Positions 8,513 through 27,705 of a DNA stretch of 64,000 nt are shown piece by piece. The position numbers and the translations under genes were made by a program. This DNA is from Kangiellaceae bacterium (GTDB taxonomy: Bacteria > Pseudomonadota > Gammaproteobacteria > Enterobacterales > Kangiellaceae): assembly GCA_026196875.1 (NCBI GenBank), contig JAPHTP010000106.1:1-64000 (forward strand), read 5' to 3'. A model generated the notes under the pieces. The model saw nothing but the letters and a program-made list of their open reading frames with translations. It made no database searches and was not told the DNA's origin. The stretch's first letter is position 1, and each line of letters opens with the position of its first letter.

Positions 8513-9409
8513 TTAAATATAAGCGGCTGCACTAATAACTAACCACGCGGCCATTAGTAACTTCAGTCTAATATTTCCTAAAATAGTCGCTAATGGCTTG
8601 GCAAGAGCACCGCCAATTAAAGCCGCTGGAGCAGCAAACAAAAGCACGTCACTATTGATCGCTTCAGAGACATTTAAATGGTAAAAGACTGCGCTTATCA
8701 CAGTTAACGAAGTAACACATACGGCAACGGCGATGGCAAATTGCACTCTAAATCCGAACAGCAGCAGGACAACCGCAATTAATTCCCCAACTCCTACTGA
8801 TATCCACGCAGTGATTACTCCTCCACCCAAGCACACGAGAACAAGCCCGAACAATTCAATCATATTGAGTGTCTTTGTTCGCCCTTGATTCTTATTTTTA
8901 AATATAAACGTGCGGTATAAAATCAGAAGCGCAACCAATATAGAAAAAACCGCAAAAACCAAATGAATGGAATGAAACGGCATAAAGTTTAACCACTGTG
9001 CTCCTAACAGTCCGAGGATAGAACTTAAACTGCACACTACGAATATAGAGTTAAAATGCTGCCATTGACCTCGAAAAACGGGCATCTCGCTTCTTGCCAA
9101 GGTCATCCAAGCCAAGGCACCTGAAGTCATCCCAAAACACTGAATAGCAAAGCTGGTTGCTACTGACTCTGTTGGACTTAAACCAAGTGACATAAAAGCA
9201 GGCAGAAATACAACTCCACCTCCTGCGCCAGTAGCGTTTGCGATTGTCGCCGCAAGCAATCCAATAAAAAAGAAATGTCCTGATTCCCATACTCGCGTTG
9301 GAAGTCCGCTAATACCTTGAGTATCGAAGGCTACACAAGTTAAGAATAGAATGGATAGGCTTATAAAATAGAAGCCTATCCTGATTTTGTTTTGTCCCAA
9401 ATACATCAT
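8513..9409 (-). CDS. TauE/SafE-family membrane permease
   Basis: A 298-residue polytopic membrane protein of the TauE/SafE (COG0730) family, which includes putative exporters of sulfite and organosulfonates. About eight hydrophobic helices are visible. The family's first repeat appears near residues 50-85, with TGAGGGVVFLPAF and a following SVATSFAI helix; a second copy of the pattern starts near residue 190 (LGGGVITAWISVGVGE). It is the last gene of the accessory operon, one base after the beta-barrel gene. Its substrate cannot be predicted. It could export a by-product or intermediate of the pathway, or be an unrelated passenger. Confidence 0.8.
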   Translation of the reverse strand: MMYLGQNKIRIGFYFISLSILFLTCVAFDTQGISGLPTRVWESGHFFFIGLLAATIANATGAGGGVVFLPAFMSLGLSPTESVATSFAIQCFGMTSGALAWMTLARSEMPVFRGQWQHFNSIFVVCSLSSILGLLGAQWLNFMPFHSIHLVFAVFSILVALLILYRTFIFKNKNQGRTKTLNMIELFGLVLVCLGGGVITAWISVGVGELIAVVLLLFGFRVQFAIAVAVCVTSLTVISAVFYHLNVSEAINSDVLLFAAPAALIGGALAKPLATILGNIRLKLLMAAWLVISAAAYI

Positions 9410-9410
9410 A

Positions 9411-10712
9411 TTAATTACGGTAATAAAAACTTAGTCGAATACTTTTTTGGCTGGGTAATAATCCAAACTCACAGCTATTACACCCTTCAAATACTTCAAA
9501 TTGCAACTTGGTATTAAAATTAGGCGTCCAATTATTGATAAATTGCAGCCGATGTAAACGACTTTTATCGTCCAAGTTTACTTGAACACTTTGCTTGTAT
9601 TGCCAGAAGCCAGTGTCTTGATTGTCTGCAAACGACAAATAAAGATAATTTCTTCTTAATTGTCCTAGTTCAAACATTTGACTAGAGCTAGTGAGCGTCA
9701 GAACTGACTCAGCAATCTGATTTCCATTTTCGATATTGAAATTGGCTAGCTCTATGTTTTCATAAAATTCATTCCACTCAGCATTAGATAATCCGTGCTG
9801 GTTATGTAAATACTCCAAAGCAAGATCCCAGTTCTGCGCAAATCGTGTTGTAACTCCTATAACCGACTTATCCCAGTAACTGTCACTGGCAACATCGTTC
9901 TGAGTTGCGGTTAGCTCTCTACGATGCTGGCGTGCCCATTCTAGTCTAATCGTTGTTGCGTCATTTATTAGTGAGCTGAAAGTAAGTGCGGAATCTATTT
10001 CCTCACCATCAACATTGTAAAGAATGAAGGATGCATCCCATCCACTATGAAACGCCAAGCGTAAAGCAGATTGGAATTGGCCAGCTGGAAACCGCGCTGA
10101 ATTTAAGTCCGCGACTAGCGCGGAAAATGACCAATTTTCAAAATACTTTTCTATTTGAACCAAGTCCCAGCCCTTTTGCTGTTGGAGCTTGTCTTCATCA
10201 AAATGAGGTCTTTCATAATATGGATAAAGTAAATTTGCCGGACTCCAGTTAAATCCGTTACTCCAAACAGGCTTAGCTCTTCCTAAAAGTATACTCAAAT
10301 CACTAGCGCGATTGCTCCATTGCAGATAACCTTCTAGCAACTCATTTTCCGTTTTTGTTATATCTTCGTTGGTATCTAAATACATCTGAGACTCTTGTTG
10401 GATAAACCCGCGTCCATTTATTTTGATTTGTTTCGAAACATTTAACTTGCTCTCAACTTCAAACTGTAGCCTGCTGTTCTTTTCAAGAAACGAACCATGA
10501 CTAGAATTAAGGACCGAAGAATTATTTTTGGTGTCTTGTTCATACAACCCTAAAAAGCTCCAAGATATAAAGACATTATTTTCTATTTTTGAGCGTTCGC
10601 TTGAACCAATGACAAACTCCCCGTCAGAAAACGGATCTTCGATTTCTTGTGCATGAGAATTGGTTGATAAGCCAATTGACAGAATTAAGGTAGCGAAAAC
10701 GAAGCGGTTCAT
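9411..10712 (-). CDS. Outer-membrane beta-barrel protein of the export module
   Basis: A 433-residue protein with a signal peptide ending near SHA-QE (residue 21), followed by many alternating aromatic/polar strands and a final segment that ends in aromatic residues (SFYYRN), as expected of an outer-membrane barrel. The region around residues 135-165, with LLGRAKPVW and NWSPANLLYP, resembles porin-like barrels of the DUF1302 type that sit beside LolA-fold proteins and transporters, but the match is weak. The gene abuts the LolA-like gene with no gap. I infer that it receives the cargo, or forms its outer-membrane exit. Confidence 0.65.
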   Translation of the reverse strand: MNRFVFATLILSIGLSTNSHAQEIEDPFSDGEFVIGSSERSKIENNVFISWSFLGLYEQDTKNNSSVLNSSHGSFLEKNSRLQFEVESKLNVSKQIKINGRGFIQQESQMYLDTNEDITKTENELLEGYLQWSNRASDLSILLGRAKPVWSNGFNWSPANLLYPYYERPHFDEDKLQQQKGWDLVQIEKYFENWSFSALVADLNSARFPAGQFQSALRLAFHSGWDASFILYNVDGEEIDSALTFSSLINDATTIRLEWARQHRRELTATQNDVASDSYWDKSVIGVTTRFAQNWDLALEYLHNQHGLSNAEWNEFYENIELANFNIENGNQIAESVLTLTSSSQMFELGQLRRNYLYLSFADNQDTGFWQYKQSVQVNLDDKSRLHRLQFINNWTPNFNTKLQFEVFEGCNSCEFGLLPSQKSIRLSFYYRN

Positions 10713-11531
10713 CTAAATTCTCTTTAAGGCTTCCTTGCTAAAAAAAGAAAGGGGGATTTTTTCGATTTTATAATTGTCAAATAGCATCCAGGTGTAGTAC
10801 CCCTCTTTTATAGGGTCCACCAATAGCAACTTATGCAACATTATTTGCTCACCAAATCGTTTGTATTCTTTGTAATGAGCGGTTTTAAGCAACTTGCCAG
10901 AGCGCGAATAGAATTCACTTTGGATTGGTTTATACGAGTCATTTTTATCAAGCCAAAACTTGACTTTCTGATATGCAGAGCTCTTGCTTTTCGCTTCCAA
11001 ACTTAGCACTGTTACAAGCTTTTCATGCAGCTTTTCTTTACCACGTGCAAATACAAAATAATCTTTAGAAAAGCTGACGCCAACGACATCACCATTGCTG
11101 GCTTCACCTATTAATCGCTGAAGAGGAGAAACTCGAATTGTTTTCCTCGTTCCCGGAATGTAAAGCCACATATTGTCGCCATCTTTGTACATTGCTCTGC
11201 CACGTGATCTGGCAGGTGACTCGAATTTAACAATCGATTGGTTATTAAGCACTTTTACTGATAGCTGATTTTTGAGCGGTTCAGAATTTTTCTTGTAACT
11301 GACATTTACGATATCAAAGCTAAAGCTAAGGTCACCGTAACCTCTAACTGAGTCGATTTTTTCAAGTAACTCTTGAGAAGACAAATCTCTGTCGTATTGT
11401 TCCTCAATAGCTGTATTCTCCTGATCCTCCGAAAGAATATCAGCAGCAAAGATGTTCCTGTCATTGAAAACAAAAATACAAAATAAAACTATTGATATAG
11501 CTTTGGCTATAAAACTAATCGTAAATTCCAT
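10713..11531 (-). CDS. LolA-fold outer-membrane lipoprotein-sorting-like protein
   Basis: A 272-residue periplasmic protein with an N-terminal hydrophobic signal (about residues 1-30, ending near FAAD). The body matches the 'outer membrane lipoprotein-sorting protein' type of LolA-like fold: strands with LSFSFDIV, VKFESPARSRGRAMY and DNMWLYIPGTRKTIRVSP (residues 130-150), then GDVVGVSFSKDY. Proteins of this fold carry lipidated cargo in a hydrophobic cleft between membranes. It lies between the ABC permease and the barrel genes, with gaps of two and zero bases, which supports a chaperone role between the two membranes. The cargo is unknown. Confidence 0.8.
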   Translation of the reverse strand: MEFTISFIAKAISIVLFCIFVFNDRNIFAADILSEDQENTAIEEQYDRDLSSQELLEKIDSVRGYGDLSFSFDIVNVSYKKNSEPLKNQLSVKVLNNQSIVKFESPARSRGRAMYKDGDNMWLYIPGTRKTIRVSPLQRLIGEASNGDVVGVSFSKDYFVFARGKEKLHEKLVTVLSLEAKSKSSAYQKVKFWLDKNDSYKPIQSEFYSRSGKLLKTAHYKEYKRFGEQIMLHKLLLVDPIKEGYYTWMLFDNYKIEKIPLSFFSKEALKRI

Positions 11532-11533
11532 TT

Positions 11534-12760
11534 CTATACATACCTCAGCGCATTAGATACAGGCAACCTAGATGCTTTTACAGCCGGATATATACTCGAA
11601 AGAACAGCTATCGAAATTCCAAGTAGAAATGTTTGTAACAGAACAGTCGATTCGACAAAAACTCTAATAGGATAATCCTGGGTACTTCCTGGTGGCCTAG
11701 GCATGTTCCATTCGGCTAAAGAAATCCCGTTGGCCAGAAGGCTCCCAACAATAAGACCTAAAATGCTGCCAATAATTCCTAGGTAAATTGATTCCAATAC
11801 AAAAAGCGAAATCACTTCAAAGGGCGTACCGCCCATAGCTCTGATAGTACCGATCTCTTTAGTTCGCTCCATTACTGCCATCATCATAGTATTAGAAATG
11901 CTCAGAGCAACAATAAACAAAACGATAATTTTGATAAATCCAAAGACACCATCAAAAAGCGCAACTACCTGGTGATAGTAGTCGGCTAAGTCTGACCAAG
12001 TTTTCATTTCCAATTTCAATCCTGCTTTATCAAAATCTTGTGCAAGTTGGTCTAGAACATTTGATGTCCTTTGAGTATCGTTTAACAATATAATCAATCT
12101 CGTTGCTGAATCTGTATAAAGTAAATCCCTCGCTAAACCGATATTCATTTTCACCAACCGACTGTCAACTTCTTTGATTCCGGTACGAATAACTCCTGTA
12201 ATCTTAATGTCGACAGCGTTAATAGCTCCATCGGTTGTTGAGCTCAACAAAGTTAGATAATCGCCGACTCCTGAATTTAACGAATTAAATAGCCCTTCGC
12301 CTAACAAAGCCCCACTTACATCATCCGGAAATAAAGCTTCACCTTTTACGAGTGAAACCGCAGAACTTAGTAGCTCTTCACTATCTGCATCTACTCCTAA
12401 TCCAGTAACAGCAATTGAATGTTGATTGTCACTTAGTAAGCCTGAAAAATTCAATCTAGGTGCGACTAATTGAACATCCTCAACTTGAGAGAGAATTTCC
12501 GATATTTTTGAAATATCTTGCTTAGAAACAAGGTATTTTTCTGGCTCTTTATTAGCATTCAGATGAAACCCTTTTGCATAGATTTGAATATGCCCAAGCT
12601 GTGAGCGAATCAGGTTTTCCCTCATTCCTTCATACATAGAAGCGACAAAGCCACCAAATAAAATCAAACTTGTACAGCCAAGAACAATCGCAGCAAGAGT
12701 AATCAAACTTCTGCGATAGTTTCTTAAAACATTTAGAATAGCGACCTTATACTTCAACAT
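11534..12760 (-). CDS. ABC transporter permease, LolC/E-MacB (FtsX-domain) type
   Basis: A 408-residue permease with the MacB/LolE architecture: one N-terminal helix (about residues 18-40), a large periplasmic domain (about 45-265), and three C-terminal helices (about 270-295, 318-345 and 372-395) forming the FtsX domain. The segment MMAVMERTKEIGTIRAMGG is the standard coupling helix of this family. Such permeases work by mechanotransmission and extract lipids, lipoproteins or small molecules rather than moving them through a channel. It pairs with the ATPase encoded two genes upstream and is followed after two bases by the LolA-like gene. Confidence 0.9.
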   Translation of the reverse strand: MLKYKVAILNVLRNYRRSLITLAAIVLGCTSLILFGGFVASMYEGMRENLIRSQLGHIQIYAKGFHLNANKEPEKYLVSKQDISKISEILSQVEDVQLVAPRLNFSGLLSDNQHSIAVTGLGVDADSEELLSSAVSLVKGEALFPDDVSGALLGEGLFNSLNSGVGDYLTLLSSTTDGAINAVDIKITGVIRTGIKEVDSRLVKMNIGLARDLLYTDSATRLIILLNDTQRTSNVLDQLAQDFDKAGLKLEMKTWSDLADYYHQVVALFDGVFGFIKIIVLFIVALSISNTMMMAVMERTKEIGTIRAMGGTPFEVISLFVLESIYLGIIGSILGLIVGSLLANGISLAEWNMPRPPGSTQDYPIRVFVESTVLLQTFLLGISIAVLSSIYPAVKASRLPVSNALRYV

Positions 12761-12761
12761 A

Positions 12762-13436
12762 TTAGAAGTCCTTAAGCATCGCCTGGGCTCTTGCGCTCCA
12801 GACAGCTTCTTTTCTTTGCACTATGGCATTGAGAATTCCTTTTGCTTGTTTTACCTCAGATGATTTTGATAGAGCCATCGCCAAATAAAATTCGACCATC
12901 GAGTTAAAACTAATGCCATTAGTTTTGCCTATATTCTCATTAACCAGAGATAAATCATTGACCGCAAGGTGAGCGCGATTTAAAAACTTGGGCATTGCCG
13001 CAGAAGCAATTCCTCTTTGTAGCCTGGCCCCTAGATTATTGGGAGCCTTTTTTACCGCCCTATCCATCATTCTCGTTCCTTTACGAGAATAAAAATTCAT
13101 CTTGCCTAAATTATCTTTATAAAATATTGATAAGTAAGAAGTAACACTCCCAAACGCCGATAGTAGCTCCATATCATCAGGATTCTCTTTGGAAAGTCTC
13201 TCAGCCAAATTAACAACTTCCAAGACATCATCCAGGCTTGTAGAGTCGTCTTCAGCTAGCAATGCGATCTTTGTGAGAAGGTATGGTTTGTCCTTTTCCT
13301 TTTTCGAAAACTGTTCTACATACTGCAGCCTTTCGCTTTGTGTAGTAGGAATAGAAGTAGGTGCAACATAGCTAGTAGAAGCGATGCATAAAGTGGACAT
13401 AAAAAGGAGCGTGAAGAATCTGATAACTTTTAACAT
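12762..13436 (-). CDS. Exported TPR-like helical protein, paralogue of the 14131-14871 product
   Basis: A 224-residue protein with a signal peptide (about 1-20, ending CIAS-TS) and an otherwise helical sequence. The segment KAPNNLGARLQRGI near residue 125 matches KAPDDLAVRMTRMI in the product of the gene on the other side of the ATPase, so the two are probably paralogues. It overlaps the ATPase gene by 7 nt and ends one base before the permease gene. It is likely a periplasmic accessory of the transporter. No enzymatic motif is seen. Confidence 0.65.
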   Translation of the reverse strand: MLKVIRFFTLLFMSTLCIASTSYVAPTSIPTTQSERLQYVEQFSKKEKDKPYLLTKIALLAEDDSTSLDDVLEVVNLAERLSKENPDDMELLSAFGSVTSYLSIFYKDNLGKMNFYSRKGTRMMDRAVKKAPNNLGARLQRGIASAAMPKFLNRAHLAVNDLSLVNENIGKTNGISFNSMVEFYLAMALSKSSEVKQAKGILNAIVQRKEAVWSARAQAMLKDF

Positions 13437-14131
13437 GCGGTCATCCTAATCGGTTCTATTTTTTCATCATTTGCGATCAGCTCACCATCTCTCATCTCAA
13501 TGACTCGATTAGCTAAATCAAACAAATACTGATGGTGAGTTGCGATAACAAATGTCGTACCCACCTCACGATTGAGACTTAACATAAGGTCAAGAATATC
13601 CTGTGCTGTTTGAGAGTCTAAGTTTGCAGTGGGCTCGTCTGCTAAAATAATATCCGGCTGGGAAACTAATGCTCTCGCTATTGCTACTCGCTGCATCTGC
13701 CCCCCTGAAAGTTCGACCGGCTTATGCTCAACGAACTTTTCTAATCCAACTTGGCTTAGAGCAAGCTTGGCCTTTTCTCTGGTATGTTTTTCTTTTCTCA
13801 AAGTTAGGGGATACATCACGTTTTCAAGCGAAGTTAGTACAGGGATCAAATTAAAGGCTTGGAAAACAAAGCCGATATGATCACGGCGCAGCAAGGCCCG
13901 TTTCTTTTCCGATTGCTCGCCTAAGTTAATACCTTTGAGTACAACTTTGCCTTTTGTTGGCGTATCCATTGCTCCCATAAGATTGAGAAGTGTGCTCTTA
14001 CCGCTACCGCTAACTCCTCTAATTACGCAAAACTCTCCCCTGGATATCGAAAAACTAACATCACTCAAAGCTTCAACCTTAGTTTTGCCAAGTCGAAAAG
14101 ATTTACTGACCTTCTCTACTGAAATAACCAT
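13430..14131 (-). CDS. ABC transporter ATP-binding protein, LolD/MacB type
   Basis: A 233-residue stand-alone ATPase subunit. Walker A is GVSGSGKSTLL (near residue 40), the Q-loop is VFQAFNLIP, the signature is LSGGQMQRVAIARAL, Walker B is IILADEPTANLD, and the switch His lies in VIATHHQYLF. This pattern belongs to the LolD/MacB/FtsE group. It should drive the FtsX-type permease encoded nearby. It overlaps the preceding TPR gene by one base and the following gene by 7 nt, which suggests coupled translation. Confidence 0.93.
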   Translation of the reverse strand: MVISVEKVSKSFRLGKTKVEALSDVSFSISRGEFCVIRGVSGSGKSTLLNLMGAMDTPTKGKVVLKGINLGEQSEKKRALLRRDHIGFVFQAFNLIPVLTSLENVMYPLTLRKEKHTREKAKLALSQVGLEKFVEHKPVELSGGQMQRVAIARALVSQPDIILADEPTANLDSQTAQDILDLMLSLNREVGTTFVIATHHQYLFDLANRVIEMRDGELIANDEKIEPIRMTAC

Positions 14132-14871
14132 TAGACTTTATCTCTAGCATGACTTTGCAATTCGGTGATTCTGTGGCATTCTTTTGCCAGCGTTTCGGGG
14201 CACTGTCCTAATCCTTGTGCCAAACTCAAATACTTTACCGATTTGTTAAGTGCTGCGTTCTCGCCTTGTTGATACTTCACGAGATACGCATTTGCTAAGG
14301 CGACATAAGCACTTTGAAATACCGGTTTTGGTAAGTGCTCACCTTGATTTTTAAATGTCTCTAATATCCATGCTTCATCATCAAACACCTCTTCAAATCT
14401 AGGATTAACTTCTCCCAAAAATGAGAAAGTAATCATCCTCGTCATCCTTACGGCTAAATCATCCGGTGCTTTGGTAACCGTGTTACTAAGTTCTTCAACA
14501 GACTTGTTCAGCAAGTACAACTTGTACATCCCCATAGACAAGTCGAGCATCGCACCCACCTGTTTGATTTTATTTGCATTAAGCCAAGCTGATGCCGCAG
14601 AATTATCTGGCTCTATTGATAACGCTTGAACTAGGGTTTGTTCCGCTTGGTCAAGCCGATTGTGCATTGAATATATTGAGCCCATTTCAACCAATAATGA
14701 AGTGTCGTTGGGAAACTTCTTTAACTCATCGGATAAAGACTTTAGTTGCTCTGATTCTTGTTCAGAATAAGGAATTTTAGCAAACTCGATTGGAGCTGCA
14801 CCAGAGAACCAAGCAACTGTGTTACCTATTATTAAACTAGTGACAGCGAAAATAATGATCTTCTTTAACAT
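14131..14871 (-). CDS. Exported TPR-repeat protein of the transporter module
   Basis: A 246-residue protein with an N-terminal hydrophobic signal or anchor (about 1-25). Its TPR-like pairs include NDTSLLVEMGSIYSMHNRLDQAE (quoted as residues about 55-77 in part: LVEMGSIYSMHNRLDQAE) and a second repeat with QALSIEPDNSAASAWL. TPR proteins usually act as protein-protein scaffolds. It shares the KAPxxLxxRxxRxI segment with the smaller protein encoded after the ATPase. The gene starts 50 nt after the acyl carrier protein gene, the largest gap inside the operon, and marks the change from biosynthesis to export genes. Confidence 0.7.
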   Translation of the reverse strand: MLKKIIIFAVTSLIIGNTVAWFSGAAPIEFAKIPYSEQESEQLKSLSDELKKFPNDTSLLVEMGSIYSMHNRLDQAEQTLVQALSIEPDNSAASAWLNANKIKQVGAMLDLSMGMYKLYLLNKSVEELSNTVTKAPDDLAVRMTRMITFSFLGEVNPRFEEVFDDEAWILETFKNQGEHLPKPVFQSAYVALANAYLVKYQQGENAALNKSVKYLSLAQGLGQCPETLAKECHRITELQSHARDKV

Positions 14872-14921
14872 TGTTGTTTCCTTAATTAAGTTCTTCTTAT
14901 GAAGACTGAACCTAACTTAAA

Positions 14922-15173
14922 CTAAATTTCTACCGAGTTTTCGAGCAGCTGAGTATCCATCTCTCTCAAGGTGGTATGTTCATCGAAAACCAAATTCTCA
15001 GGATTCATAACGCCTGGATACAATTGCTCGCAAATTAATATAACCTCAACAATATTTAGTGAATCAACTCCCAGTTCAGCAATGGGCGTATCCGGATCAA
15101 CCTCATCCTTGTTTAACATTTGCGCAACTTGCGTTGTTAATTCGCTGATAGTTTTGCTTTCTACTAATTCCAT
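14922..15173 (-). CDS. Acyl carrier protein
   Basis: An 83-residue, acidic, four-helix carrier protein. The phosphopantetheine attachment site is Ser38 in LGVDSLNIVEV, a good match to the DSL motif. It presumably carries the substrate activated by the AMP-forming ligase encoded at the promoter-proximal end of the same operon, presenting it to the decarboxylase, dehydrogenases and thiolase-fold proteins. No phosphopantetheinyl transferase gene lies in the window, so a housekeeping one would have to serve. It is distinct from the fatty-acid AcpP in sequence and context. Confidence 0.9.
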   Translation of the reverse strand: MELVESKTISELTTQVAQMLNKDEVDPDTPIAELGVDSLNIVEVILICEQLYPGVMNPENLVFDEHTTLREMDTQLLENSVEI

Positions 15174-15203
15174 GGTAACTCCTCACTGTTGTTTTTTTAG
15201 TAA

Positions 15204-19422: not shown

Positions 19423-21272
19423 TCGACGTCCTCCGTGGCATATGCCCACACTTGATGCGGCAGTTTTATAAAGGACTCATCCGCCTTCATAATAGATAAA
19501 GTAGAATGAACATTTGGCAAAATGTTGAATACGAAAAACTTTGCTGAAGCTATTTTTCCTTCGCAATAACTCTTGAGTTTCTCATCAGGCATTCTTGATA
19601 ATTCGTCTCTTGCAGCACAAGCTCCGGCAATTAGCAACCAGGATAAAGTGACTTCGCCGAACGCCTGCAGAATTCGAGTACTGTACGCAGGTATCTTCTC
19701 CATGCTTTTGTTTTTTATCCATTGCCTAACTAGCTTAAGCATTTCATCTAGCGACTCTAATGCAGACTTCAAAGACTTAAACTCTGACTCTAAATCTGGA
19801 TAATCGGTAGACTTATCTAAGAAACCATTAATTTGTGAGCGGAAAATTCGATAGAGCTTGCTTTCGTTGCCTAAACCTAATTTGTCTCGAATTAGATCTT
19901 GTGACTGAACGTAATTAGTCCCTTCCCAGATAGAAAGTACTTTTACGTCCCTGGCGTATTGCTCCAGGCCAAGTTGTTTTAAGTATCCTCTCCCTCCGCA
20001 TGTTTGAATAGCTAGCTCACAAATCCTCCAAGCTTGGTCTGAAACATAGGCCTTTACAACAGGCGTTAGAAGATCAACGAGCCCTTGGCTTTCTTCTAGT
20101 ATTACTTGCTTATCAGCTTGATCTTGATATTTGGAAACATACGATTCGCAAATGCTAAGTTTGGCAATTAGAGCGCGACACCCTTCTACTTTAGATTTCA
20201 TTTCCAACAGCATTCGTTGAACGTCCAAATGTTCAACAATGTTGACGGTTTTTGCGCGGGGATTAAAACTTTGTTCGAACTTTTTACCCTGCGGACGATT
20301 TAATGCAAACTTTAAGGCATTATGGTAAGCGGAAGATGCCATTCCAAGAGCATAAACACCGGTACTTATTCTCGCTTGGTTCATCAAAGTTAGAAATTGA
20401 ATCAAGCCCACATTTTCTCTATCACCTAATAGGTAAGCCCTACACTTTCCATTTTTACCAAAAGTTAAATGAGTATTTGCGCAGCCTTTAAATCCCATTT
20501 TATCTGCCAAGTCGACGCATTCCACATGGTTAAAATCACCAACATCTCCATTTTCCTCAACCCAAAATTTGGGTACGATAAAACAGGACAGTCCATAAGT
20601 TCCGATCGTGCTACTTTCTCCACGCGCTAAAACGAAATATATAGTGTTATCTGTAAGCTCGTGCATTCCAGCCGAAATTAAGTACTTTTCGCCGGAAAGC
20701 AAATAGGTTCCATTATCTTGCTTAACGGCCTTTGACTTAACTAATGAAACATCGCTGCCAGCTTGCGGCTCAGTTAAGCATAAACAAGAAGTCCATTGAG
20801 ATTCTTCGAGTTTATTCTTAAATAATCGTTTTTGGATATCTGATCCATATTTATCCACTAGTGTTGCCGAAGGTCGACAAAATCCGCCATAGGTCATAAA
20901 CGATGGGTTCGCACCCATAAACATTTCAAGCACCATCTGCATAACAACAGGAGGAATGTCAAAACCGCCAAACTCTTCGGGAACACTGAGATTTCCCCAT
21001 TCTTTTTGGAAATCATTCCAGAGTTCTTTATACGAGGAAGGCAAAACAACGTTTCCCTCTTCTAGCTTACATCCTTCTATGTCTGACGCCTGGTAAGCAG
21101 TACCAAGCTTTTCACAAGCAAAAGTTTTTGCCCTTTGAAGAATTTCCTCTATCGCTTGCCTGCTACACAGACCGAACTTTCCCCCCTTAAACAAATCATC
21201 ATCCAAGGAAAATTGGTTCCACAATAGAAAAAGGAAATCTTGTAAGTCAGTTTTATAAATCTGGTTATTCAT
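19419..21272 (-). CDS. Acyl-CoA dehydrogenase, long (about 600-residue) type
   Basis: A 617-residue flavoenzyme. The FAD/substrate-binding segment CLTEPQAGSDVSLV is near residue 160, the flavin-binding CGGRGYLKQLGLEQYARD near 425, and the catalytic base is Glu450 in IWEGTNYVQ. The extra C-terminal domain after about 470 is as in FadE-type large acyl-CoA dehydrogenases. It should oxidise an acyl thioester to the alpha,beta-unsaturated form. The presence of a carrier protein and ligase in the operon makes an acyl-ACP substrate plausible. The gene follows the thiolase-fold gene by 45 nt and overlaps the flavoprotein gene by four bases. Confidence 0.92.
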   Translation of the reverse strand: MNNQIYKTDLQDFLFLLWNQFSLDDDLFKGGKFGLCSRQAIEEILQRAKTFACEKLGTAYQASDIEGCKLEEGNVVLPSSYKELWNDFQKEWGNLSVPEEFGGFDIPPVVMQMVLEMFMGANPSFMTYGGFCRPSATLVDKYGSDIQKRLFKNKLEESQWTSCLCLTEPQAGSDVSLVKSKAVKQDNGTYLLSGEKYLISAGMHELTDNTIYFVLARGESSTIGTYGLSCFIVPKFWVEENGDVGDFNHVECVDLADKMGFKGCANTHLTFGKNGKCRAYLLGDRENVGLIQFLTLMNQARISTGVYALGMASSAYHNALKFALNRPQGKKFEQSFNPRAKTVNIVEHLDVQRMLLEMKSKVEGCRALIAKLSICESYVSKYQDQADKQVILEESQGLVDLLTPVVKAYVSDQAWRICELAIQTCGGRGYLKQLGLEQYARDVKVLSIWEGTNYVQSQDLIRDKLGLGNESKLYRIFRSQINGFLDKSTDYPDLESEFKSLKSALESLDEMLKLVRQWIKNKSMEKIPAYSTRILQAFGEVTLSWLLIAGACAARDELSRMPDEKLKSYCEGKIASAKFFVFNILPNVHSTLSIMKADESFIKLPHQVWAYATEDVE

Positions 21273-21317
21273 TTTGTTTCTCTTTTATTCTTATTTCCAA
21301 ACTAGTTCTAGTTTCGC

Positions 21318-22334
21318 TTACTCTAATGCGCATCCACTTGTATTCCATTCAAAATAGTGATTTGCCAAACCTCTATACTGTTTTTGAGGATACTTTAAGG
21401 CTTTGCTTACCCTTTGGTGATAATCGGATTTTGATTTGGCGGCCAACGCCATACGATATTTTTCACAATCGGAATGCAGATCGAAGCTCGTTTTAGACGT
21501 AGCTAAATTCGATATTTTATAGGACCTCGTCTCTGCACTCCTTTCCCAATTATTATAAATAAGCAGGCAACCAACACGTCCTCCACCGCCAAGTGTCATG
21601 ATGAAAATAGGAGCAGTTTTTATAAGCGAACGATATTTTTTTATTTCCAGAATGGGTTTAAGACTTAAAAAATGAGTTTCATTTTCTTCCAGGCTAGGCA
21701 GCCAACCTTTTACTGGATGTTTACACTTACTGACTTCCAAGCCTTGTAAGAGGCTTTTACACCAATCTGAACAAATATTGAATGAAATGCACTTAGTATT
21801 TTGTGGAATTTTATCTAGACGACTTGTAAGGTTTGATATGAGTTTAGTCGTACCGCTGATACCAATTTCTTGTGAAAGAATTTCACAACTAGCAATATAT
21901 AGTTCATTGGACTTGCGCTCTTTAGATACATGAACTAAACCAATACCAGGAGTAACTTGTAAACCATCTTGCTCTCTTTCATTGCCGATCCCCAACGAAT
22001 TTAAGCATCCCTGTTGCATTTCCCGGTTTAGTTCTAAAATGAAAATAAATGCTGACTCAAGCTCACTCTGACCAAAGTCCAATAGCGCCGCGTGAACACT
22101 AGTGCAGGCAGCACTAACTACCTTCGTCTTTATCTTATATTTGTGTCGCAAGCGAGTTATGAAATCTGATATTTTCTGGTCAAGCAACACTTTTACTTCA
22201 GCAGCAGAAACGATATATATGTTCTGGTTTTGATGCCCTTCCTCTTCGGAAGCTAGCAAAAACTCCTCCTCTAAACTACGTAGAGATTCTTCGGTATCAA
22301 CACTATATTCTGCCCAAATATGCCCAATAAACAT
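21318..22334 (-). CDS. Divergent thiolase-fold (ketosynthase-like) protein
   Basis: A 338-residue protein with no close family I can name. Two features point to a beta-ketoacyl synthase fold. VVSAACTSVHAALLDF places Cys77 at the start of a helix as in the ketosynthase nucleophile elbow (usually ACxxxxxAL). MTLGGGGRVGCLLIY near residues 247-260 resembles the glycine-rich C-terminal strand-turn. The usual catalytic histidine motifs are not obvious, and the protein is shorter than a full FabF-type enzyme. It may be catalytic with altered chemistry, or a partner of the second thiolase-fold protein encoded nearby. The start overlaps the previous stop as TAATG. Confidence 0.55.
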   Translation of the reverse strand: MFIGHIWAEYSVDTEESLRSLEEEFLLASEEEGHQNQNIYIVSAAEVKVLLDQKISDFITRLRHKYKIKTKVVSAACTSVHAALLDFGQSELESAFIFILELNREMQQGCLNSLGIGNEREQDGLQVTPGIGLVHVSKERKSNELYIASCEILSQEIGISGTTKLISNLTSRLDKIPQNTKCISFNICSDWCKSLLQGLEVSKCKHPVKGWLPSLEENETHFLSLKPILEIKKYRSLIKTAPIFIMTLGGGGRVGCLLIYNNWERSAETRSYKISNLATSKTSFDLHSDCEKYRMALAAKSKSDYHQRVSKALKYPQKQYRGLANHYFEWNTSGCALE

Positions 22335-22912
22335 TACCCTTCACCACCACTTGTTATCGAGCTAATAGCTTCCGAACTTGAATACCAGTCAAAATCTGTC
22401 CGGTTTCTATCTAAGTTAAACCCCCGGTTTACTAAAAGAGTTTCGAATTCTAACTCTTCTTCTTTACTCTGACTAAAATACACTCGAATTGTCAGTTGAT
22501 TATTTCCTTGCTCCAATCTAAATCGGACCAATTGACTATCGATAACCACAAATGATTCGCCTGCTAATCTGAGCTTCTCTTCTTCAGAACTAATGTCTTG
22601 AAGCATCAGCACTCTTTCATCTAACAAGCCTTTCGGCAACCTCATACCCGATGGCATTGAAATCCGGAGTAACACGATAGAGCTCTTTTGAGCTTTTAAG
22701 AAAAACTCAACAACGTCTGCCAAAAGTTGGTGATGTTCATGGAAAGATAAGTACACAGGGCAATTACTATTTGGCAGAGAAGCAATTGATTCAAAATCAC
22801 CTGCAGAATTTAATGGTAACACTTGAGCATTTGAGAGCGCCGGAATACCAGGATACGGGTTTCGCTCCAACACAGCGATAGTTGTTTTGGCAAACGCAAC
22901 GTTACGACTCAT
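22334..22912 (-). CDS. Hypothetical protein between two ketosynthase-like genes
   Basis: A protein of about 192 residues that I do not recognise. It appears soluble and mixed alpha/beta, with no signal peptide. A His-rich turn, LSFHEHHQLLADVVEFFLK (about residues 66-84), could bind a metal but matches no motif I know. I chose ATG 22912, preceded by CGGA at eight bases, giving an 11-nt overlap with the upstream gene. The open frame extends to ATG 22999, but that start has no ribosome-binding site and would overlap by 98 nt. Its fixed place between the two thiolase-fold genes suggests it works with them. Confidence 0.6.
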   Translation of the reverse strand: MSRNVAFAKTTIAVLERNPYPGIPALSNAQVLPLNSAGDFESIASLPNSNCPVYLSFHEHHQLLADVVEFFLKAQKSSIVLLRISMPSGMRLPKGLLDERVLMLQDISSEEEKLRLAGESFVVIDSQLVRFRLEQGNNQLTIRVYFSQSKEEELEFETLLVNRGFNLDRNRTDFDWYSSSEAISSITSGGEG

Positions 22913-23870
22913 AGCAAGCATCCGTTTTATAATGAGCGTTACTGTATTTATTGTTGGAGCCTCGCGTGAAGATGCTTGCTTTTTGATTGAGAAAATCATT
23001 CAGTACTGAAACTTTATCTAAATAAAACTTTGAATTCGGCGTTATATTCACTTCCATTAAACAGTAGTAACCGTTTAATGCGATGGAACAAACCAACATT
23101 CTTTCCAACTTAGTTATTGAATGTTCTAAACCGTACTCAATGATTGACAACCACGGATCACTACCAAAACAATGTCCCCACTTATGATGCAGATCAGGTA
23201 TACGGGGACTAGCTTGCAACATCTTATCGAAAACAACTCTTATTTCTTCAGGAAAAAATGGCAATGAAAGCTTAACTTCAGATTCATTTAACACAAGACG
23301 CCTAATGATGGTTGCAAACTCCGGCGTTGAGTTATAGGTCGTAGCGCAACTAGCAATTAGAGAGTTATCATTAACTTGATGATCGTCAGATTGTTCTGTT
23401 TTAATCAGTACTGTCGTTAAGCCAAAACCTGACGCGCCCCAGTTTTCATTTTCTTTCCAAAAAGAAAGGTTTAGTAAGTTTGCATCCAAAATACTAAACA
23501 ATAGGTATTTTGCTTGCGGTTCAACTCGCTTGTAGTATCGGGCCGAGTATCCCCAAGAAGCACACTCGTAAGCATTTACAAACGAGCAAGGTAATGGTAT
23601 TTCAGAACTTTTCGGCTGTTTTTTAAATAATTCGACGATCTCCGACCAATCTAATTCTCCAGAGGTAAAAGGGAGTTCAATCATAGTTGAGCACAAGAAA
23701 TGGCGATTGATACTTTGCCGTTCTTCGATACTTAACGAAGAAACTACTTTCTCAGTTTGTATGGCAATAATTTGCGCAAGCGCTGAGAAGCACTCTCGAG
23801 AAGATAACCTGGGTTCACTAAGTTCTACAGGCAGAGAGGTAAAGGCAACGGATTCCAACGCGTAGTTCAT
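22902..23870 (-). CDS. Divergent KAS III-like thiolase-fold protein
   Basis: A 322-residue protein with distant resemblance to 3-ketoacyl-ACP synthase III. Cys103 in NAYECASWGYSARYY sits where the nucleophile would be. The downstream strand and loop, with GASGFGLTTVLIK (145-157), match the GxGxGAVVL region. Residues 228-240, HHKWGHCFGSDPW, resemble the His/Asn active-site loop. ALNGYYCLMEV (264-274) matches the glycine-turn strand near the KAS III C-terminus. This hints at a Cys-His catalytic set. It overlaps the acyl-CoA-dehydrogenase-like gene by four bases. With the 338-residue protein it may form a pair, by analogy with ketosynthase/chain-length-factor pairs. Confidence 0.55.
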   Translation of the reverse strand: MNYALESVAFTSLPVELSEPRLSSRECFSALAQIIAIQTEKVVSSLSIEERQSINRHFLCSTMIELPFTSGELDWSEIVELFKKQPKSSEIPLPCSFVNAYECASWGYSARYYKRVEPQAKYLLFSILDANLLNLSFWKENENWGASGFGLTTVLIKTEQSDDHQVNDNSLIASCATTYNSTPEFATIIRRLVLNESEVKLSLPFFPEEIRVVFDKMLQASPRIPDLHHKWGHCFGSDPWLSIIEYGLEHSITKLERMLVCSIALNGYYCLMEVNITPNSKFYLDKVSVLNDFLNQKASIFTRGSNNKYSNAHYKTDACYES

Positions 23871-24979
23871 ATTCTCCCCCTTTTCTTCTTTGAATAAATT
23901 TCAAAGAAGCAGCGATACGACGAACCTTCCATTTTGGTGAATGCTAGTAAATCTCGCTGGCTTTCGATGCTCTTCACACTTCCTCGTCTAACCAAGTCGA
24001 GTAGTAGTTCATTTGAGGAAAATTTAAGTGCTAGCACTCTATCGACCGAATGAATAGAAAACTCCGTTTCTTGAAGTATGCAGTTACACACGTCAATCAG
24101 ATAATCGATATGTTTTTTTTGTGTTTCTGACAGGTCGACTCTTCGATTATCATTTAACCAAATAATAAAGTGCATTAATGACTTTACAAATCTAGGTCTT
24201 ACTAAAGTCAGAAACCGGTTAACCCCTGCTAACCCACCTTTAGTTAAAATTACATCTGGATTGACTGTGACTTCGCCTTTTACATTTCCTAACTGTAGGC
24301 TACCGTCGAGGAATGGCTTACCAATAGTTTGTGTCTGAAATGCTTTGGTGATCTCAGGAGGTAGTAGCAGAGTTACTGGAAATGGTTTGCCTTTTTCTCG
24401 AGCAACAACCATAGCGAAACCGAGTTTATGAGCTTCGATGCCATGGATTTTGTTTACCTTTAAACTTAGCTCTACGTCTCGTTTATGTTCATCCGAATGG
24501 CGAGTTAAAATGCTTTGCCAATTAGAAAGCGTTGGCCCTCCTACATCGGTCATTAAAAAGTGACCCAAATGTCCCTGTTCCACCCATTGTTCAACAAGTT
24601 CTTTTTGCTGTTCAGTTGCGCTCAGACTCATATTAATCGAGCCAAAAAGCCCAATAAGCTCATGAAACTTGCCTGCTAGGCCCTCATTCTTAATACTGTC
24701 GATTAACTCGTCAATAAAGTAGATTTGTTCAAATGATTCTAAAGGTTGCTTTACTTGAGGAGTTTGTAACTCCTGGGGAGCAGTTAAGTTGTCTTCAATT
24801 ATCATGGTTGAATCAACCAGGGGAAGAACGGCGGATTTAATCAACGCTCTAAATGAATCTGGCATTTCTACTAAATCACTAAGATACTCGGAAATGAAAC
24901 TGCCGAAAATGCCTGAGTAACTTAGATACTCATTTAGTTCTTTCTGATTTTCTACTGTAATCGATGCTCCAGTCTTCAT
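23867..24979 (-). CDS. Acyl-CoA-dehydrogenase-like protein, probably without catalytic base
   Basis: A 370-residue protein whose middle resembles acyl-CoA dehydrogenases. LGHFLMTDVGGPTLSNW (about 137-153) replaces the usual TEPxxGSD segment, KVNKIHGIEAHKLGFAMVVARE (part quoted: NKIHGIEAHKLGFAMVVA) replaces the NGxKxW strand, and a beta-domain strand with VNPDVILTKGGLAGVNRF is followed by the helical region. The C-terminus lacks the EGTxxIQ motif that carries the catalytic Glu. It may be a non-catalytic subunit or act on a different substrate. It lies 12 nt after the decarboxylase gene. Family membership is inferred from pattern only. Confidence 0.55.
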   Translation of the reverse strand: MKTGASITVENQKELNEYLSYSGIFGSFISEYLSDLVEMPDSFRALIKSAVLPLVDSTMIIEDNLTAPQELQTPQVKQPLESFEQIYFIDELIDSIKNEGLAGKFHELIGLFGSINMSLSATEQQKELVEQWVEQGHLGHFLMTDVGGPTLSNWQSILTRHSDEHKRDVELSLKVNKIHGIEAHKLGFAMVVAREKGKPFPVTLLLPPEITKAFQTQTIGKPFLDGSLQLGNVKGEVTVNPDVILTKGGLAGVNRFLTLVRPRFVKSLMHFIIWLNDNRRVDLSETQKKHIDYLIDVCNCILQETEFSIHSVDRVLALKFSSNELLLDLVRRGSVKSIESQRDLLAFTKMEGSSYRCFFEIYSKKKRGRI

Positions 24980-24991
24980 ATCAACTCAACC

Positions 24992-26167
24992 TTACTCAAT
25001 AATATAAGCATTAGCTTGCGGAAGTTTTAGAAATGACGAAACCGTATAGCTAGAATTGTAGGCTCCACAATAATTAAACAAAGCGTACTCTCCAACTTGC
25101 GGTTTGTTAGAGCCCTTTTTCAACTGTCCTATAAGGTCATCTTTGCTACATGAACTTCCAACTAGATAACAGTCCTCCTCCAACTCAATGTATTTTTCGT
25201 TCAACGATATGATTTGGGGATACTTTAGCCTTCGAAAGGCATTCTCTGTTTGAGCTAACAAGAAATTTTGAGCAATGCCACCATCGCAAATTGCGTATTC
25301 TGTGAGGTTATCCTTTTCATCTAGTATTGATTTGACATACCTGATCCTGGTTAGAAAAAAACCTGCACTTGCCATGATTCCCCGCCCCGCTTCGTGGGCA
25401 AGTCGCAAAGAAGATGGAAACTCCGACAACAACTCCCGGTAATGGGCAAAATCAAAAGAGTCAGCTCGCCAATCTTCCGAAAATCCGCCTCCCAAATTCA
25501 GGAATTCAACTTCATCTTGCATAAATTCTTGTACCGCATATAGCATCGAAAGTGCTGATTTTGCGGTAGCTACGGCAGTCTTATTGAAACTGTATGAGCC
25601 TTTAAATAGATGAAAACCAGCTATCTTCAACTCGAGTTCATTAGCTCTTTTAATACAGCCAACTAAATGCTGCCAGTCCATTCCAAAATGATCGTTGCGT
25701 ACAGAAGGATGCTCGACGTTAAATCGCTTTAATACAAAAGGATTCACTCTCAAAACTAGAGGATTGACTTTTCTTCTTTGAGAAAGCTCAGCTAGAATTT
25801 CGAGTTGCTCGACATGGTCTATAACTACAGTTGCCTTAGAAGACACTGCGGCTCTAATAAAATTTTTGTCCGCAGAAGGGTTGTTAATGTACTTTGTACT
25901 TTCACCACTAGCGATAAGGTTAAGTTCATTAATTGAGGCAATTTCTATCCCATCATCAAAAACGTCACCACATCTAACGATCAAATCAATATTGCTGTTC
26001 GACTTTAGAGAGTAAATCAACTCTGTTCCCAGTACGCTTTTAAGTTCTTGATAGTTGCGTTTCACTTCGGAAACCGAATATACATAACACGGCGTTTTAA
26101 AGTTCGAAGGCGACGACTTTACCATCTCGGCTAACGCGCCATTAATATTGTTCAAACGATCATGCAT
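24992..26167 (-). CDS. PLP-dependent decarboxylase, fold type III (DAP/ornithine decarboxylase family)
   Basis: A 391-residue enzyme with the alanine-racemase-like barrel and C-terminal beta domain. The PLP lysine is in IYSLKSNSN (near residue 55); FLNLGGGFS (near 220) binds phosphate; HEAGRGIMASAG (near 255) is the EPGR-like motif; SSCSKDD (near 345) holds the active-site Cys/Asp; and YCGAYNSSY follows at about 370. In this family BtrK decarboxylates a glutamyl-carrier protein, and relatives sit beside AMP ligases and ACPs in exosortase-A clusters. A carrier-bound amino acid is therefore a reasonable substrate guess. The start overlaps the ligase gene by 8 nt. Confidence 0.9.
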   Translation of the reverse strand: MHDRLNNINGALAEMVKSSPSNFKTPCYVYSVSEVKRNYQELKSVLGTELIYSLKSNSNIDLIVRCGDVFDDGIEIASINELNLIASGESTKYINNPSADKNFIRAAVSSKATVVIDHVEQLEILAELSQRRKVNPLVLRVNPFVLKRFNVEHPSVRNDHFGMDWQHLVGCIKRANELELKIAGFHLFKGSYSFNKTAVATAKSALSMLYAVQEFMQDEVEFLNLGGGFSEDWRADSFDFAHYRELLSEFPSSLRLAHEAGRGIMASAGFFLTRIRYVKSILDEKDNLTEYAICDGGIAQNFLLAQTENAFRRLKYPQIISLNEKYIELEEDCYLVGSSCSKDDLIGQLKKGSNKPQVGEYALFNYCGAYNSSYTVSSFLKLPQANAYIIE

Positions 26168-27650
26168 ACCGTACTTCCTCTAACCGCCGAGCTAAGTGTT
26201 TTTTATCAATTTTGCTATTAACCGTTAACTCAAACTCTTCAAAAAAATAAACTTCCCTCGGCAAGTAATCTCTATCTATCTTATGTTTAATCCAACTCAA
26301 TACATCATCTCTGACATCCGGATTATCTTGATGTAGTTGAATGGCCAATACCGCGATCTCATCACCATTTTTATCGGCACCCGAAATTACCGCAACCAAG
26401 TTAATATTGGAATTTTTTTCAACCTCATCTTCTATGTCTTTGGGATATAAGCAAAAGCCAGATTGTTTAATAAGCTCTTTACTTCTGCCTTTAAAAAAGA
26501 AAAAACCTTCTTCATCTTGAATAAAGAGATCTCCGGTAGCCAACCAGTTATCATCTCGGTACTTTCCAGGAATGAGGCGCGCCCCACCTTTTGCTTCAAC
26601 GTTACAGTATTGTTGCATTAATCCAGAACCTCTAACGTAGAGCTCTCCGACTTCACCAAATTCAACTTCTCTATAAATTATTTGTGCTCCAATTTTATTT
26701 TCTTGGAATAGCTTTGCTTCGATCCCTGGAATCGGAAGTCCCACTGAACCCATTTTTTTCTCTAGCAACTCAGGTTCAAGATATAGGGCCCGCTTACACT
26801 CAGTTAATCCATACATAGGAAATATAGATAACTGAGGAAAACTTTCTTTCCATGAGCGAATTACAGCTTCACTTAAGTGACCTCCGGTATTGGTGAGCTT
26901 TACTAAAGAGTTCATATCGTTACGAGCAATTTTCACTACTTTAATTATTGAACTCGCCATTGCAGGCACAATTGGCAGTAAGGTTATCTTGTTTTTACAA
27001 ATGAACTTAACAACTTTTAGTGGATTAAATTGACCTTCGTAAATTGTGACTTGACAGTCTCGATAAAGAGAAAATAGAACTTGGTAAAGGCCATAGTCAA
27101 AAGACAAAGGTGAAAGTCCAAGGATATGTTCGTTTGAATCGATTCGAAGATATTGGCTAATCGAATGCAAAGAAGAAACGACACTAGAATGTGTCAACAT
27201 AATACCTTTCGGTATGCCAGTACTACCCGAAGTATAAATAATTAATGCAAGATCACTCCCACTGACTCTGGGATCACTTTTATACTTAAATTTCGAAGTT
27301 AGCTCAATGTGGCTTTCTAAAAGAGTAATTTTCTCATCTTGAAAAATGGCTTTCGCATTGCAGTCCTTAGCGATAATTGAAACATCAGAATCTGACATTC
27401 CTCCTTTCACCGGAACAACTACAACTCCTTTAAACCATGCGACCAGCATAGTGGAAACGGCTAGCAAAGGAGAGTCTGTTTTCACGACCAGCCGTTCGCC
27501 ATGGCCTAAATTTATTTTACTGAACTGTTGTCGACTTAACTCGACAGCTTGTTTGGTTAGCTTTTGCTCGGAATCGCTTAAGCTAATTTCACCATTCCAA
27601 TTTTCGGCGACTACTTTTTCAAATAGCTCTGCCAAAGAGAAAACAGGCAT
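26160..27650 (-). CDS. AMP-forming acyl/aminoacyl ligase
   Basis: A 496-residue adenylate-forming enzyme, first gene of the operon. Motifs: IIYTSGSTGIPKGI (ATP loop, near residue 140), YGLTECKRA (A5), WLATGDLF (A7), FFKGRSKELIKQSGFCLYP (A8 hinge) and NSKIDKK carrying the C-terminal catalytic Lys. It should activate a carboxylate as the adenylate and load it onto the operon's acyl carrier protein. The organisation resembles TIGR03098-type ligases of exosortase-A clusters and the BtrJ/BtrK/BtrI set. I chose ATG 27650, with GGGGA five bases upstream; a TTG twelve bases earlier lacks that spacing. The substrate is not predictable by eye. Confidence 0.9.
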   Translation of the reverse strand: MPVFSLAELFEKVVAENWNGEISLSDSEQKLTKQAVELSRQQFSKINLGHGERLVVKTDSPLLAVSTMLVAWFKGVVVVPVKGGMSDSDVSIIAKDCNAKAIFQDEKITLLESHIELTSKFKYKSDPRVSGSDLALIIYTSGSTGIPKGIMLTHSSVVSSLHSISQYLRIDSNEHILGLSPLSFDYGLYQVLFSLYRDCQVTIYEGQFNPLKVVKFICKNKITLLPIVPAMASSIIKVVKIARNDMNSLVKLTNTGGHLSEAVIRSWKESFPQLSIFPMYGLTECKRALYLEPELLEKKMGSVGLPIPGIEAKLFQENKIGAQIIYREVEFGEVGELYVRGSGLMQQYCNVEAKGGARLIPGKYRDDNWLATGDLFIQDEEGFFFFKGRSKELIKQSGFCLYPKDIEDEVEKNSNINLVAVISGADKNGDEIAVLAIQLHQDNPDVRDDVLSWIKHKIDRDYLPREVYFFEEFELTVNSKIDKKHLARRLEEVRYA

Positions 27651-27705
27651 AACTTTCCCCAAGTTGATTGAAGCAATAATAAGTAATTAGACATCTTCTA
27701 AAAAT

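Follow-up and report, generated by a model that had tools for sequence, protein, structure and literature searches.

The best described relative of the genes considered here is the afc cluster of Burkholderia, which makes AFC-BC11, a lipopeptide with three dehydro-beta-alanines that is assembled without condensation domains and was solved in 2025 (main text of PMC12186527). In vitro, as the same text describes, AfcQ activates L-Asp and repeatedly loads the carrier AfcK, AfcP decarboxylates the AfcK-loaded unit, the fatty acyl-AMP ligase (FAAL) AfcA acylates the tripeptide, and AfcL accepts the peptide and hands it to Lys-CoA; afcM, labelled "UDP-glycosyltransferase-type", is essential for AFC-BC11. 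In bolagladin, a product of Burkholderia gladioli, dehydro-beta-alanine needs the acyl-CoA-dehydrogenase (ACAD)-type protein BolQ, according to a deletion mutant described in the accessible text of PMC7756342. The locus reported here lies in a window of 64,000 nucleotides, the whole stretch of DNA that was analysed (contig JAPHTP010000106.1 of assembly GCA_026196875.1, positions 1 to 64,000), in the draft genome of a Kangiellaceae bacterium (6.28 Mb in 188 contigs). It consists of 18 open reading frames (ORFs) of the minus strand (8513-27662, with the ATG of the AMP ligase at 27650), hereafter the block, which sit between murJ and rpsT with overlaps of at most 11 bp and gaps of at most 50 bp, as packed as an earlier sequence-only reading of this DNA had claimed.

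The entry point was a 370-aa protein without a family (23867-24979), which matched two Burkholderia replicons at 38%. These we took to be replicons of the kind that carries the afc antifungal cluster, an assumption then confirmed by the literature and by gene content. The blastp and tblastn comparisons detected afc-locus homologues of the ligase, the decarboxylase, the acyl carrier protein (ACP), both ACAD-type proteins, one thiolase-like protein, the ATP-binding cassette (ABC) ATPase, the permease and the LolA-like protein, and profile comparison (hhalign) equated the 221-aa protein with AfcM and the thiolase-like protein at 22902..23870 with AfcL. In total, 10 of the 18 proteins are homologous to products of the Burkholderia afc locus, the gene letters being assigned from gene order and from the description in the main text of PMC12186527 rather than from a gene table. 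By sequence homology, the block is a predicted marine sister of the afc pathway, of a distinct type and in a clade of its own. We consider it probable that it encodes an AFC-like, carrier-templated peptide route without condensation domains, the product of which would be Asp-derived, desaturated, probably halogenated, and exported. The earlier proposal of a biosynthesis-plus-export operon making an amino-acid-derived acyl-ACP is supported by the afc homology.

The first gene (26160..27650; minus strand, as for all block genes below) encodes a VinN/AfcQ-type adenylating ligase, with VinN as its closest solved relative (3wvn, 5e-41). In VinN, D230 coordinates the amino group while S299 and R331 are proposed to recognise the carboxylate (accessible text of PMC11253843 and PMC7756342). 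Equivalents of D230, K330 and R331 are kept in 13 of 13 ligases, namely that of the block and 12 marine copies, and the S299 position is a Thr in the block ligase, the same as in AfcQ; the VinN numbers depend on an inferred 16-residue offset of the PDB chain, which is consistent for D230, F231, S299, K330 and R331. The ligase is predicted from these residues to activate the beta-carboxylate of L-Asp, and the substrate class is well supported. The adjoining type III pyridoxal phosphate (PLP) decarboxylase (24992..26167; 35% to AfcP) has solved relatives that include BtrK, an L-glutamyl-[carrier] decarboxylase, and is predicted to act as an aspartyl-ACP alpha-decarboxylase; its K55 does not vary in any of the 32 rows (19 from the afc side and 13 marine ones, the block among them). 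Both ACAD-type proteins retain an invariant Glu: E351 of the KMEGSS motif in the AfcJ homologue (23867..24979; 38% to AfcJ, no Pfam or NCBIfam match) in 37 of 37 rows from both clades, and E450 (WEG) in the AfcE homologue (19419..21272; 44% to AfcE), a member of the acyl-CoA-dehydrogenase family predicted to desaturate carrier-bound beta-alanyl units, in 36 of 36.

The AfcL homologue (22902..23870; hhalign 100%, E 1.2e-54) resembles acyltransferases of the beta-ketoacyl-ACP synthase III (KAS III) type; it has no Pfam or NCBIfam match, and a sequence search of solved structures gave nothing useful. Its C103 is aligned to Cys111 of AfcL and is invariant, together with H233 and D238, in 37 of 37 rows from both clades; H233 and D238 are the putative remainder of an AfcL-type triad. 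The AfcM homologue (22334..22912; hhalign 99.5%, E 1.5e-22), with its best start at the ATG at 22912, likewise lacks a Pfam or NCBIfam match, and these libraries neither support nor exclude the UDP-glycosyltransferase type. The free-standing carrier protein (14922..15173) is 54% identical to AfcK over 65 aa, and its DSLN motif is invariant in 13 of 13 copies. By analogy with their families, C103, E351, E450 and K55 are presumed to be catalytic. Some of the alignments are restricted to full-length genes or cover 10 of the 12 marine relatives, another omits one truncated copy, and the Collimonas locus (see below) was left out of the afc alignments; the Pseudoalteromonas AfcM-type copy, called at 10 aa, stands outside its alignment, the gene itself having been found by tblastn.

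The block thus combines an Asp/Arg-pocket VinN-type ligase with homologues of AfcP, AfcK, AfcL, AfcE, AfcJ and AfcM, as in AFC-BC11-type assembly, without AfcA. In the window, AfcA matched only the AfcQ-type ligase and an unrelated propionate-CoA ligase, and in the 12 marine loci only the AfcQ-type ligase, the rest of the Kangiellaceae genome not having been searched. This second AMP ligase of the window (43152-45089) was rejected as a candidate, being of the propionate-CoA ligase type. Among the afc-side loci, AfcA occurs at 51% or more in 23 of 25; it is not in the Collimonas locus and only a 28% cross-match was seen in Ramlibacter. AfcN, AfcO, AfcR and AfcS, which the same product would call for, gave no tblastn match at E 1e-3 in the window or the marine loci (AfcC, AfcD, AfcF, AfcT and AfcU were not searched separately). 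No citrate synthase homologue was found in the block and Pfam detected no methyltransferase there. Since FAAL, AfcN-type desaturase, citrate synthase homologue and Pfam methyltransferase are all lacking, the product is predicted not to be AFC-BC11 itself.

Other enzymes of the block have no detected afc counterpart, and the first of these is a flavin-dependent halogenase-like enzyme with a C-terminal extension (17473..19422). By profile, its closest solved relatives are PltA (2.4e-26), ChlB4 and Mpy16, which act on carrier-bound substrates. Flavin-dependent halogenases carry a GxGxxG FAD motif, a WxWxIP motif, a catalytic Lys and an FxxPxxSxxG motif, all of which have equivalents in the block enzyme; none of the 13 copies departs from YWxWxIPLSGG, from FLDPLFSxGGD or from PKNG with the candidate Lys. 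The latter is probably K99, which lies two residues ahead of a Gly and would correspond to the catalytic Lys73 of PltA, to which it aligned one column off, beside a gap. Each of the 10 marine genomes searched has an in-cluster match with an E value of 7.5e-224 or better and none elsewhere above 61 bits, and the best match in six genomes with afc-side loci was 56 bits. A halopyrrole-type pathway as in pyoluteorin or prodigiosin, with prolyl ligase, peptidyl carrier protein (PCP), ACAD and PltA-like halogenase, would call for four enzyme types identical to those found here, and one ACAD-type protein has a weak PigA match besides the PltA/ChlB4/Mpy16 kinship of the halogenase. This explanation is nevertheless very improbable, as the ligase has a VinN beta-amino-acid pocket, the PigA and prolyl-PCP dehydrogenase scores (59 of 500 and 51 of 650 bits) are far below cut-off and, from general knowledge of such pathways, the decarboxylase and the KAS III-like proteins would be left without a role.

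Next to the halogenase-like gene, an alpha/beta hydrolase (16571..17476; Pfam Hydrolase_4, 7.7e-24) has GHS, with D and H further along, conserved in all 13 copies and is a possible release or proofreading enzyme. A 338-aa protein (21318..22334) has no Pfam or NCBIfam match and a sequence search of solved structures gave nothing useful. Its AlphaFold2 (AF2) model, with a predicted local distance difference test score (pLDDT) of 88.9, was matched by Foldseek first to KAS III (1.3e-8, TM 0.41-0.51) and to ChlB3 (7.8e-8), while VIA-align tied many ketosynthases at Z 16-17, with ChlB3 at 16.8 (root-mean-square deviation, rmsd, 3.8 over 245 residues). C77 and H221 are invariant in 11 of 11 copies. 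According to the model, this is a protein of thiolase/ketosynthase fold with a putative active-site Cys, for which no finer class emerges; it stands after the AfcL and AfcM homologues, the place of AfcO, and could play the part of AfcO. The remaining enzyme is an asparagine-synthetase-fold protein (15204..16571), the AF2 model of which (pLDDT 72) has both asparagine-synthetase domains (TsnB9, Z 21.6, rmsd 3.9 over 392 residues; AsnB, Z 15.7); its profile found nothing useful among solved structures by sequence. An active AsnB has an N-terminal Cys and a PP-loop of the SGGxDS type; among the 12 orthologues both are absent or unconserved, and at 17-28% identity this gene is less conserved than any other in the block. 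It is probably not an active synthetase, and we read it as a degenerate, non-catalytic scaffold or a repurposed enzyme.

The families that the sequence-only reading had named for the ligase, the decarboxylase, the ACP, one ACAD, the halogenase-like protein, the hydrolase, the N-terminal part of the AsnB-like protein and the LolD-like, LolC/E-like and LolA_like proteins all have Pfam or NCBIfam support; its fold calls for the second ACAD-like and the two thiolase-like proteins agree with AfcJ and AfcL homology and, for the third, with AlphaFold and Foldseek.

A route can be proposed from these data. The ligase would adenylate L-Asp at the beta-carboxylate and load the ACP, and the PLP decarboxylase would strip the alpha-carboxylate to give beta-alanyl-ACP, the free amine of which might accept the next aspartyl unit by the iteration shown for AfcQ. 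The two ACAD-type proteins would desaturate the units to dehydro-beta-alanine, the role of AfcE and BolQ, and the flavin halogenase would act on the carrier-bound enamide, which to our knowledge would be new chemistry for such an enzyme. The AfcL homologue would then detach the chain from the ACP and transfer it to an amine, the second ketosynthase-fold protein and the hydrolase would serve end-capping or release, and transport of the product to, or across, the outer membrane would fall to the LolDE-like ABC pair together with the TPR-type and LolA-like proteins and the barrel. In this scheme halogenation, oligomer length, end groups, release, export route and function are the parts that we infer, and chain length and oligomerisation are unproven because the FAAL that sets the length is missing. 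A more specific version, which we put forward only tentatively, has halogenated oligo-dehydro-beta-alanine peptides (haloenamide foldamers) made without a nonribosomal peptide synthetase (NRPS), halogenated on the carrier and exported by LolDE/LolA, all from a self-contained operon spread among marine Gammaproteobacteria. AFC-BC11 is antifungal and B. cenocepacia afcE mutants are attenuated (accessible text of PMC6301696), a role that is not carried over to the marine form.

Several points weigh against the AFC-like route with halogenation. The ligase is only 25-30% identical to AfcQ, which is itself nearer (42%) to an exosortase-A ligase of the same genome than to the block ligase; the FAAL that sets the trimer length of AFC-BC11 is missing from the block; hhalign found no match of the 338-aa protein to AfcO or AfcR; no metabolite is known for the block; and no flavin reductase was recognised among the block proteins. 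Moreover, halogenase-like flavoproteins include hydroxylases, and an AFC-like peptide route in which the flavoprotein is a hydroxylase or oxidase, giving an oxidised rather than a halogenated product, is the least improbable of the alternatives, although we think it rather unlikely. Flavin halogenases and monooxygenases have a common fold, and the models for CmlS (64 of 900 bits), QhpG (59 of 240) and LodB (47 of 400) match weakly, all far below cut-off; on the other side, WxWxIP, PKNG with the candidate Lys and F-x2-P-x2-S-x2-G never vary in the 13 copies, the nearest solved relatives are halogenases and the clade is marine.

The lack of a FAAL length gate would also suit a block that makes one beta-alanyl or dehydro-beta-alanyl unit as the starter for a product encoded elsewhere, as in bolagladin and the macrolactams, and bolagladin indeed obtains one unit by the same logic of ligase, ACP, decarboxylation and dehydrogenase (accessible text of PMC7756342). 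We regard such a starter role as unlikely, a little more so than hydroxylation, as the block has acyltransferase-like proteins, a hydrolase and an export set of its own and recurs without a constant neighbour.

The resemblance to exosortase-A (XrtA) sets leads to one further explanation, in which an envelope polymer, for instance a polysaccharide, is what the module decorates, the role guessed for such sets, and what the exporter serves. Indeed, the top NCBIfam names are exosortase-A ones for the ligase (TIGR03098; 246 bits for a cut-off of 592), the decarboxylase (124 of 478) and the AsnB-like protein (52 of 817), all far under the cut-offs, and the protein at 22334-22912 is homologous to AfcM with its UDP-glycosyltransferase-type label. 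This is improbable, however, given that Pfam finds neither glycosyltransferase nor exosortase in the block, that afc counterparts exist for the ACAD, KAS III-like and AfcM proteins, that the AsnB-like protein is without both active sites, and that a separate XrtA-type ligase (727 bits) with an adjoining decarboxylase is found elsewhere in the same genome.

The exosortase-A ligases deserve mention in their own right. In the 56 genomes searched, the VinN Arg loop takes its AfcQ form, MYGLTEAFRS, in seven of seven XrtA ligases above the cut-off, among them the above-mentioned ligase of the Kangiellaceae genome (contig C76, 37482-39011), which is 42% identical to AfcQ. Activation of L-Asp and formation of beta-alanine are thus possible functions of the XrtA module. 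Another locus (L077, 3100-8600) has two adjoining ligases, one with a VinN-like TECKR loop, close to an AsnB-like ORF, and is possibly another beta-amino-acid module.

To assess the distribution of the block, 84,980 species genomes were scanned once with a pattern-based method, the counts of which are a lower bound. At least 36 loci were obtained: 12 marine ones at 50-59%, from Microbulbifer, Pleionea, Saccharospirillaceae, Bermanella, Marinomonas, Pseudoalteromonas and one gammaproteobacterial metagenome-assembled genome (MAG), and 24 at 35-38%, 22 of which are afc-type (Burkholderia, Chromobacterium, Trinickia, Pseudomonas, Robbsia) while the remaining two are a Ramlibacter MAG with the core and a Collimonas with a lone AfcJ homologue. 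The block is present in three of 61 relatives, its own genome counted, and in a class-wide sample in one of 369, again its own, at E 1e-20 or better. Each of the 10 marine relatives that were fully fetched has the complete set of 17 genes, from ligase to barrel, in one place (two further loci, L015 and L017, are incomplete), with the AfcE homologue and the halogenase in a shifted position in some; the genes therefore co-occur as a block, and the independent scattering that would have spoken against the sequence-only reading was not seen. No gene family in the flanks is common to more than four loci, and all four-locus families are from Microbulbifer; the cross-genus ones, GGDEF-type signalling proteins (three loci) and one short ORF family (two loci), we read as chance. 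Neither murJ nor obgE was found near the block in the 12 relatives, and its place in the genome differs among them.

One branch of a six-gene tree, with a Shimodaira-Hasegawa-like approximate likelihood ratio test (SH-aLRT) value of 100, separates the 13 marine rows from the 11 afc-side rows. The Kangiellaceae block joins Microbulbifer, Bermanella and Saccharospirillaceae and not Pleionea of the same family (99), a placement that would be as expected under horizontal transfer. The tree was made with a quick method from 11 of the 25 afc-side loci, and most rows drew composition warnings.

Among the loci outside the marine clade, that of the Ramlibacter MAG (L033, 6100-15300) has homologues of the ligase, decarboxylase, ACP, AfcJ, AfcE, AfcL, AfcM and AfcN. 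Neither a FAAL nor a halogenase stands out clearly in it from homology and ORF lists, and it is possibly a third pathway type. The Collimonas locus (L027, 9500-11035), viewed in the same way, has an AfcJ homologue (51%) and no other core gene; the neighbours of this gene look like glycine-cleavage genes. The afc-type clusters of Chromobacterium and of Pseudomonas helleri, fragi, saxonica and bubulae (L021, L022, L026, L031, L032, L034, L036, L041, L046) had no FtsX or LolA homologue matched, and the ABC ATPase match lies at the extreme edge of three of them.

Downstream of the biosynthetic genes, the block encodes a set of envelope proteins: a TPR protein with an N-terminal hydrophobic segment (14131..14871; weak TPR matches, 12 of 12 marine loci), a LolD-like ABC ATPase (13430..14131; 43% to an afc-locus ATPase), a second protein with a signal-like N-terminus (12762..13436), without a family match and noted for its position and conservation, a LolC/LolE/MacB-like permease (11534..12760; 29%, E 4.5e-42 to the afc-locus permease) and a LolA_like periplasmic protein (10713..11531; Pfam LolA_like 3.1e-39; 23%, E 4e-12 to an afc-locus ORF). 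For the putative outer-membrane barrel (9411..10712), named as a barrel in the sequence-only reading, AfcI was matched only weakly by profile (hhalign 51%) and Pfam gave no family in any of 11 orthologues; AfcI as a query had one weak match among the marine loci. The last gene, a TauE/TSUP transporter (8513..9409; Pfam TauE 3.2e-21), is an optional member found in three of the 10 fully fetched relatives, one contig ending before it could be judged. The AFC lipopeptide is located in the membrane and deletion of afcI, encoding an outer-membrane channel, kept a wild-type production profile (accessible text of the afc papers); by analogy, the envelope proteins may therefore serve storage or trafficking more than secretion.

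As for the genomic setting, the earlier statement that murJ and rpsT are normally neighbours holds for four of six congeners, where they are divergent with ca. 325-435 bp between aligned ends; in the fifth, the 20 kb of sequence upstream of murJ did not yield rpsT, and the sixth has its murJ divided over contigs. The GC content of the block is 0.399 compared to 0.411 for the remaining window, so that composition does not set the insert apart, and the flanks have no common direct-orientation word of 11 to 16 bases, which indicates no long target-site duplication. The operon start is separated from rpsT by an AT-rich non-coding leader of 1.1 kb (27663-28804), of which only ca. 30-55 bases immediately upstream of the rpsT ORF match congeners and in which Rfam detected only a sub-threshold CRISPR-repeat match. 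Promoter-like sites were as frequent as in shuffled sequence, and terminator-like sites numbered 3 for 1.1 expected and 4 for 2.1 expected.

These data indicate that the operon is real and conserved, that it was itself not found described, and that its core is of a kind known since June 2025. A literature search recognised no marine or halogenase-bearing version, supplements and most subscription papers being beyond its reach, so that a report may exist. The words Chromobacterium, Pseudomonas, marine and halogen do not occur in the main text on AFC-BC11, nor do lipopeptide and halogenase in that of a Microbulbifer review. Solanimycin was rejected as a relative, its residues being dehydro-alpha-alanine (accessible text of PMC10204066). 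The assembly core, described from Burkholderia, thus proves to be portable, with at least two and probably three settings. Burkholderia, Chromobacterium, Pseudomonas, Trinickia and Robbsia have it together with a fatty-acyl ligase, marine Gammaproteobacteria have it together with a halogenase, and the Ramlibacter MAG is a possible third case. The product, if like AFC-BC11, is expected to be light-sensitive and to absorb near 330 nm, and is possibly halogenated. The findings suggest that searches based on condensation domains would miss such pathways, and that L-Asp may be a substrate of the exosortase-A ligase set.

When compared to known systems, the block shares with VinN/VinO/VinL of vicenistatin the beta-carboxylate activation pocket and carrier-bound decarboxylation; the Vin set provides a polyketide synthase starter and is not known to have a dehydrogenase, halogenase or exporter of the kind found here. 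With exosortase-A sets it has the ligase, decarboxylase and AsnB-like types in common, but its proteins are far under the curated cut-offs and no exosortase gene is present. With PltA, ChlB4 and Mpy16 it shares motifs and a profile match, outside which the long C-terminal part of the block enzyme lies. The LolD-like ATPase, LolC/E-like permease and LolA fold recall LolCDE/LolA export, whereas there is a single permease gene and the scores are under the equivalog cut-offs (240 of 308 bits for LolD, 122 of 362 for LolCE), so that the set does not classify as a LolCDE lipoprotein exporter. The bol cluster, compared by description and not by sequence, is alike in its VinN-like BolO, free ACP, decarboxylation, KAS III homologues and BolQ, but feeds a modular NRPS, of which the block has no modules (accessible text of PMC7756342). 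The claim that no described pathway has this combination of genes did not survive the comparison with the AFC-BC11 route, which covers much of it (main text of PMC12186527). The match to this characterised cluster holds for the core, with homologues of AfcQ, AfcP, AfcK, AfcE, AfcJ, AfcL and AfcM in one locus and with the ABC ATPase, the FtsX-type permease and the LolA-like protein also in the afc locus, and does not extend to the whole, as the block adds the halogenase, the hydrolase, another ketosynthase fold, the degenerate AsnB-like protein and the TPR-type proteins.

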